Source: Vicinamibacterales bacterium (lineage in GTDB: Bacteria; Acidobacteriota; Vicinamibacteria; Vicinamibacterales; Fen-181). Taken from it: DNA of 64,000 bases. Below the pieces are notes generated by a model. That model was not told where the DNA came from and searched no databases. It was given only the letters and a program-made list of their open reading frames with translations. The first letter of the stretch is position 1, and each line of letters starts with the position of its first letter. A program made the position numbers and the translations under genes. Shown piece after piece: positions 9,649 through 11,034 of this stretch. The stretch lies in assembly GCA_036504215.1 (NCBI GenBank), contig DASXVO010000028.1, forward strand, positions 124,001 to 188,000. The letters run 5' to 3'.

Positions 9649-10275
9649 CTACTGGTTGAGCGCCTCGTGCACCTTCCCGACCATCTTGGCGCCGGGATTC
9701 ACGAGCGTCTTGTCGCCCTCTTCCTTCCATTTCGACGGGCAGACCTCGTTCGTCTTCCGTCCCAGGTACACGTTCGCCTTGAACTTGCGCATCAGCTCGT
9801 CGATGTTCCGGCCAAGGTTGTAGAAATTGACTTCGCTGTTGAGCAGCACGCCTTCGGGATTGATCACAAAGGTGCCGCGAAGCGCCAGTCCGGTTGCCTC
9901 GTCGTAGACACCGAACATCCTCGAGAGCCTCCCCGTCGGGTCGGCCCCCATCGGGTATTTCACGGCCGCGAGTTCCTTCTCGTTCTTCTTCCAGGCCAGG
10001 TGCACGAACTGCGTGTCGGTGCTGACCGTGACCACGTCACATCCCATCTTCGCGAACCGATCCTGCTGCTCTGCCAGAGCAGCGAATTCGGTCGCTCAAA
10101 CGAATGTGAAGTCGGCTGGGTAGAAGAACAGGATTGTCCAACGCTTGTTGGCGATCTGCCCGGCCAGGGAGAAGCTCCCGAAGTCGTCCTTGATCGGATC
10201 GTACGTCGTCAGCTCGAAGTCGGGCACCTTCTGCCCGAGCTTGAGCCCCGTCTGGGTCACAGCGCTTTCGGCCAC
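9649..10275 (-). CDS. AhpC-type peroxiredoxin with in-frame UGA (predicted selenocysteine)
   Basis: A 2-Cys peroxiredoxin of 208 residues that reduces H2O2 and organic peroxides. The frame is continuous except for one TGA at 10096-10098 (residue 60). That codon falls exactly where the family has its peroxidatic cysteine: FFYPADFTFV-(UGA)-ATEFAALAEQQ corresponds to the usual PADFTFVCPTE. Conserved coding continues on both sides, and the resolving cysteine (Cys179, NEVCPSKW) is intact. A SECIS-like hairpin follows the UGA. The start is the GTG preceded by AGGAGG; a longer frame upstream lacks a binding site. Reading the UGA as a stop would give two useless halves. Selenocysteine peroxiredoxins are known in other bacteria; Sec machinery is not in this window. 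Confidence 0.85.
10065..10083 (-). promoter_or_regulatory. Bacterial SECIS-like hairpin
   Basis: Downstream of the UGA in the mRNA, GCUGCUC and GAGCAGC form a perfect 7-bp stem with apical loop UGGCA. The loop's GG begins 20 nt after the UGA, inside the distance range known for bacterial SECIS elements, which present a guanine in a small apical loop to SelB. The hairpin is seen directly; SelB binding is inferred. Confidence 0.75.
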
Positions 10276-10370
10276 AGGCCCTCCTGGAAACACGATGGAC
10301 CGACCGACGGACGGCTGAGTCCGTCTCGCGTAGAATACCATCATCTGCTCTTGGTCCGAGGAGCGCGTGC

Positions 10371-11034
10371 ATGCCGTCTGCGCTGTCGGCCGTTATGTCG
10401 AAGCTGCCGGAGGTTGGCGTCACCATCTTCACAGTGATGACGCGGCAGGCGGTCGAGCACGGCGCCATCAACCTCGCGCAGGGCTTCCCCGACTTCGACT
10501 GCGACCCCGCGCTGGTGGCGGCCGTTCACGCGCACATGAAGCAGGGCAACAACCAGTACGCACCCATGCAGGGTGTCCTTGCGCTCAGGGAGGCCATCGC
10601 CGGGAAGATCGCCGCCCAGTACGGCGCGACGTACGACCCGGCCACCGAAATCACCATCACCTCAGGAGCGACAGAAGCGCTCTTCTGCGCCATCGCAACT
10701 CGCCTATGCCGAGTTCGTGCGCGCACGAACCAGCTACGAGGACCTCGCGACCTTCTATCAGGGCAAGCGCGACCGCTTCCTCGCGCTGATCGCCGGCTCG
10801 CGGTTCAAGCCCATCCCGTGCCGTGGCACCTACTTCCAACTCCTCGACCACGCGGCCACCACCCGTGAGCCCGACCGCGGATTCGCCATGAGGCTGCTCC
10901 GCGAGCATCGGGTTGCGTCGATCCCCACGTCGGCATTCCTGCACAACAGCGAGGCGCCGCCCGTCCTTCGATTCTGTTTTGCCAAGAAGGACGGGACGCT
11001 GGAGCAAGCTGCCGCGAGACTCTGCCGGGTCTGA
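10371..11034 (+). pseudogene. Class I/II aminotransferase (methionine/kynurenine aminotransferase-like), internally deleted
   Basis: The first 109 codons encode the N-terminus of a YbdL-like PLP aminotransferase (KLPEVGVTIFTVMT, INLAQGFPDF, NQYAPMQG, TSGATEALFCAIA). Around 10694-10700 the sequence jumps, in another frame, to the family's C-terminus (QLAYAEFVRA, FYQGKRDRFL, PCRGTYFQLLD, LRFCFAKKDGTL). About 160 residues (roughly 490 bp) are missing, including the domain with the PLP-binding lysine, and the two halves are out of frame. The product would be inactive. A GGAG ribosome-binding site still precedes the ATG. Decay by deletion and a mis-assembly joining two reads are both possible. Confidence 0.85.

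Follow-up and report, generated by a model that had tools for sequence, protein, structure and literature searches.

A Sec-containing peroxiredoxin, PrxU, has been known since 2001 (Sohling 2001, as cited in PMC13188914). In 2006 the count of Sec peroxiredoxins stood at 12, with 5 Cys-to-Sec events (PMC1794560); the Sargasso data yielded 43 sequences (PMC1088965), and another tally gives 91 Sec peroxiredoxins in 78 organisms (PMC5029168). For the Acidobacteria, the account in PMC1794560 lists 4 selenoproteins in 3 families, which are left unnamed there. An AhpC selenoprotein with UAG as its Sec codon has also been reported, in Blastococcus saxobsidens (PMC5330540).

Here we describe a minus-strand gene (10275-9649) in the window, by which we mean the whole stretch of 64,000 nucleotides from a Vicinamibacterales genome that was analysed, and which almost certainly encodes an AhpC/Prx1-type 2-Cys peroxiredoxin with Sec as the peroxidatic residue. 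PrxU of Eubacterium acidaminophilum, compared through loci that pass the PrxU model NF040737, is likewise of the AhpC/Prx1 type, with a PxxxTxxU motif, a peroxidatic Sec and an in-frame UGA with a hairpin, but differs from the window protein in model score, position in the tree and hairpin loop (see below). AhpC (TIGR03137) shares with it the nearest solved structures and a resolving Cys in CPxxW, whereas the window protein has predicted Sec in place of Cys and Ala in place of the Pro that follows. The B. saxobsidens protein, likened to ours by its description in PMC5330540, is also AhpC-named and equipped with a bSECIS, but its Sec codon is UAG and its tRNA-Sec has a CUA anticodon. In the open-access literature, a scope outside which most subscription papers lie, we found neither a description of the clade to which the window gene belongs nor a paper on an Acidobacteria AhpC selenoprotein. 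Sec peroxiredoxins are already known; the clade, its SECIS and its Sec-Ala pattern are new.

The peroxiredoxin gene and its in-frame UGA

Read from GTG (10275) to TAG (9651-9649) on the minus strand, the frame contains a single TGA (10098-10096), at which the list of open reading frames splits the gene into pieces of 82 and 132 aa. Read-through gives a product of 208 aa (PADFTFV-U-ATE ... VCPSKW, with resolving Cys179) that matches Pfam AhpC-TSA with 120.5 bits and has the attributes of a typical 2-Cys peroxiredoxin of the AhpC/Prx1 class, namely an AhpC-TSA domain, PxxxTxx(C/U) and a C-terminal resolving Cys. The original prediction held that conserved peroxiredoxin sequence continues in frame across the TGA, that the TGA occupies the codon of the catalytic (peroxidatic) Cys and that Cys179 is retained as the resolving residue; all three points were borne out, by the read-through product, by the comparison of genomes given below and by the conservation of the resolving motif (Table 1).

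Table 1. Features of the peroxiredoxin locus, in window positions
Feature	Position	Strand	Remark
Predicted Sec-containing AhpC-type peroxiredoxin gene, GTG start to TAG stop	9649..10275	-	208 aa, Sec60
In-frame TGA at the peroxidatic position (Sec60)	10096..10098	-	same codon in 27 clade loci
Putative bSECIS hairpin, 7 bp and UGGCA loop, intragenic (codons A-A-L-A-E-Q)	10065..10083	-	
Codon of resolving Cys179 (VCPSKW)	9739..9741	-	C-P-x-x-W in 26 of 27 clade loci, absent in L039
AGGAGG, Shine-Dalgarno-like, 4 nt 5' of the GTG start	10280..10285	-	direct sequence reading

A scan of 193 genomes of the class returned a match at E <= 1e-40 in six, the window's included, and all six carried one TGA. 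In a sample of 396 genomes of the phylum, 11 (again with the window's; L009, L030-L039) had a clade match whose site codon is TGA; the same sample held a Cys relative with 58% identity (L040) and a locus cut off before the site (L041). Among the best 80 of 591 loci from a scan of named genomes, 11 had TGA, these coming from Rokubacteria, Planctomycetota and Nitrospirota, 66 had Cys and 3 (L091, L109 and L120) were unread, the site motif not being found in them. This last scan under-finds Sec loci, because a Cys codon was built into one of the two peptide patterns used. A further 38 regions, picked from rows of the phylum scan for which no locus had been listed (all noticed rows with one TGA and some others), had TGA at the site in 24 cases and Cys in 2, with the motif unmatched in 12.

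The clade comprises 27 distinct loci with TGA at the aligned codon, in 27 genomes from the window's phylum, Planctomycetota, Nitrospirota and Rokubacteria; counts of 27 include L039, which has two further TAG stops, as well as L037 and L073, which run off their contigs. Three other clade members have Cys at the same column (TGT in L067, TGC in L074 and L075), as do 78 further Cys rows outside the clade. The Cys/UGA alternation that had been proposed as a check on the prediction is found at exactly this column.

Hairpin, decoding machinery and alternative readings

A 7-bp hairpin with a UGGCA loop had been predicted at 10065-10083, 20 nt downstream of the TGA. The hairpin was recovered exactly (10083-10065 on the minus strand, 19 nt), with an optional eighth U-A pair that would leave GGC; the distance had to be corrected, as the hairpin starts 12 nt past the TGA, with a gap of 19 nt from the TGA to the apical loop. 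The bSECIS model in the legend to Fig 2 of PMC13188914 has an apical loop of 3-9 nt and an upper stem of 4-16 bp, and the same source gives a G among the first two loop positions, 16-37 nt between UGA and loop, and an MFE of <= -7.5 kcal/mol. The fold check suggested along with the prediction places the window hairpin (5-nt loop, UGGCA; 7 bp; 19 nt; -14 kcal/mol) within these constraints. Hairpin stability by itself is not decisive: the 39-nt hairpin stretch is unremarkable (z = -1.38, with 21 of 200 shuffles equally or more stable), and it is the larger 71-nt region that stands out (z = -4.51, with none of 200 shuffles as stable).

The 13-nt hairpin core GCTCTGGCAGAGC is invariant in all 27 Sec loci, whose proteins are ~60-87% identical to that of the window, and the hairpin codons GCT-CTG-GCA-GAG are identical in every one of them; elsewhere in the peroxiredoxin gene of these loci, only 17 of 247 Ala codons are GCT. 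Synonymous sites in the six hairpin codons are frozen, with a mean codon identity of 0.97 as against 0.49 at 80 other conserved degenerate columns. It is the presence of the same TGA in 27 loci, together with the invariant core, that lifts the combination of hairpin and TGA beyond chance. Covariation support is thin. Five of the seven pairs never vary among Sec loci, and double changes affect only one pair, in 3 of the 25 distinct rows (U-A has become C-G in L039 and L073, and G-U in L066); the count of pairs with a double change was matched in 120 of 500 shuffles (not significant) and the count of cells with one was reached in 0 of 500 (significant). Pairing holds in 98.3% of hairpin cells, compared with at most 56% in slid controls, and none of the clade's three Cys members (L067, L074, L075) has the hairpin.

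The selA, selB, selD and tRNA-Sec genes that the prediction expected were searched for in the window's genome (5.92 Mb, 90 contigs), and all four are present above curated cut-offs: tRNA-Sec with anticodon TCA at 66.3 bits (cut-off 47), SelB at 359.5 (242.25), SelA at 526.4 (267.9) and SelD at 348.9 (125). The sel genes lie on contigs other than the window's. A second tRNA-Sec-like match (L002, 52.9 bits) was discarded, being tRNA-Ser according to ARAGORN. Occurrence of SelD as a selenoprotein is known, and the SelD of this genome is probably one itself; its gene (L021, G000:C47:5642-6571) has one in-frame TGA of its own.

Across the clade, selA is present in 26 of the 27 genomes bearing the Sec gene, a co-occurrence that adds little because much of the phylum has selA (252 of 396 genomes; 149 of 193 in the class). 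The gene was not found in the remaining Sec-bearing genome, G289, which is 91% complete, and its absence there probably reflects incompleteness; G289 holds both kinds of Sec peroxiredoxin (L033 and L155). Of the genomes that carry the Cys form, two (those of L074 and L075) have selA, which was not found in the third, that of L067.

A second candidate selenoprotein gene of the window's genome (L011:1366-1906, plus strand; second copy at G000:C70:100792-101298) encodes an AhpC/TSA redoxin, which we take to be PrxQ-like, with a TGA in AFTGG-U-TAEC. Most of its relatives listed in the class have one TGA; the TGA stands at the same place in 4 of 5 further loci, the fifth (L184) being unmatched by the motif. 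The redoxin is predicted to be another selenoprotein.

The idea that UGA is here read as a residue other than Sec, whether by a general reassignment or by a near-cognate tRNA, or that the ORF from ATG 10047 is a separate product, is very improbable. That a frame stays open once the code is altered does not prove Sec, and the 132-aa ORF does have an ATG of its own; yet the genome has the complete Sec machinery, the site alternates with Cys, the SECIS-like hairpin occurs in UGA forms only, and the downstream ORF alone would be without the catalytic residue. UGA is apparently not reassigned genome-wide, since a second gene of this genome (L011) appears to end in TGA. Slightly less credible again is a pseudogene created by a nonsense mutation in the catalytic Cys codon, a notion that the break into two ORF pieces would invite, but which is refuted by the same TGA in several phyla, by coding conservation (invariant columns) on both sides of it and by the frozen hairpin; silent and amino-acid codon differences between the window and L025 number 13 and 11 of 52 codons upstream, and 53 and 15 of 148 downstream. 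A one-base sequencing or assembly error, conceivable for a sequence known as an assembly without reads, has the smallest chance of all, given that TGA and hairpin are common to independent genomes. The selenoprotein reading draws its support from the machinery, the Cys/UGA alternation and the conserved hairpin; the genomes themselves directly display the in-frame UGA and its conservation, the hairpin, the decoding genes, the resolving Cys and the family.

Family placement and the Ala after Sec

The window protein falls below the cut-off of every NCBIfam model listed. Its best match is AhpC (TIGR03137), at 180.5 bits against an equivalog cut-off of 272, and filing it under that equivalog was rejected. 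PrxU (NF040737) gives 171 bits for the window protein (equivalog cut-off 270) and 174-195 bits for clade members L030, L038, L065 and L066, whereas L056, L139 and L141, with the motif LCFYPGDFTFVU, pass at 384-393 bits; identification as PrxU was set aside on this score and on the separate clade in the tree. That tree, built from 91 of 133 extracted proteins with Cys rows L081-L138 thinned to a quarter, joins the window's clade to Cys proteins of Aquificota, Desulfovibrionaceae, a Myxococcota-labelled genome and L040 (support 99/99), apart from the PrxU group. A single clade of all 52 Sec rows was rejected (AU p = 0.0199); the 27 Sec rows as one clade with the Cys members outside gave AU p = 0.436. 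The phylogeny suggests that the window's clade is a Cys-to-Sec conversion separate from PrxU, two separate Sec origins being likely rather than proven because long branches were flagged in the tree.

PrxU-type Sec peroxiredoxins are themselves common in the phylum, with 25 loci in which TGA was read (L056, L139-L159, L161-L163). Their hairpins differ from the UGGCA hairpin of the window, having mostly a GC-rich stem and a GGUC-type loop.

An Ala codon directly follows the Sec codon in the window (10095-10093, minus strand). All 27 clade loci have this U-A pair, as do 13 of the 25 PrxU-type loci; of the 78 Cys rows that fall outside the clade, 77 have C-P. We lean towards the view that the AhpC family acquired Sec on two or more occasions (in PrxU and in the window's clade), and that the change from Pro to Ala would be a convergent adjustment to the chemistry of Sec or to the context of its decoding. 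The C-A pair seen in the clade's three Cys members may be left over from an ancestor with Sec.

Proposed mechanism and biological meaning

We infer that selenium is inserted at residue 60 and that the protein is a peroxidase. The hairpin that starts 12 nt after the UGA of codon 60 would recruit SelB, bound to Sec-tRNA(UCA), to decode it; the Sec60 selenolate would reduce H2O2 or organic peroxides, and Cys179, probably that of the partner subunit, would resolve the selenenic acid. The selenenylsulfide would then be reduced, probably by thioredoxin/thioredoxin reductase, a reductant proposed because no AhpF scored above cut-off in the window's genome (best match 230 versus 502.9 bits, without the N-terminal part). 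An AlphaFold2 model from the clade alignment, of moderate quality (pLDDT 72.7), has AhpC structures as its best PDB matches (4ql7, TM 0.88 on target, 40% identity), and the nearest PDB sequences to the window protein are also AhpC. The predicted Sec60 stands at the place of the peroxidatic Cys and Cys179 at that of the resolving Cys.

Gene neighbourhoods were viewed at ten loci, with Pfam run on the neighbours of L063, L065, L068, L072 and L040. In Nitrospirota relatives, the Sec gene lies near Fur (L063), near desulfoferrodoxin, flavodiiron protein and rubrerythrin (L065), or near flavodiiron protein and desulfoferrodoxin (L068); such company (superoxide reductase, flavodiiron protein, rubrerythrin or Fur) fits a role in peroxide defence and oxidative stress. 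Peroxide-defence neighbours were seen in these relatives and not in the window, where the genes next to the peroxiredoxin encode a Sortilin/BNR protein, an aminotransferase that looks broken, and an FKBP. The aminotransferase-like gene (class I/II; 10371-11034, plus strand), its N-terminal part recognised by Pfam and the later part by eye, seems to lack its middle and to change frame, and is possibly a pseudogene or an assembly fault. An Rfam scan of the window returned tRNA-Phe only.

The clade is covered by no NCBIfam equivalog at cut-off, and annotation probably splits the gene or labels it a pseudogene across several phyla. Natural Sec/Cys pairs within one clade offer a means of measuring the contribution of selenium to a peroxiredoxin, and the repeated change from U-P to U-A can be tested for an effect on catalysis or on UGA decoding.
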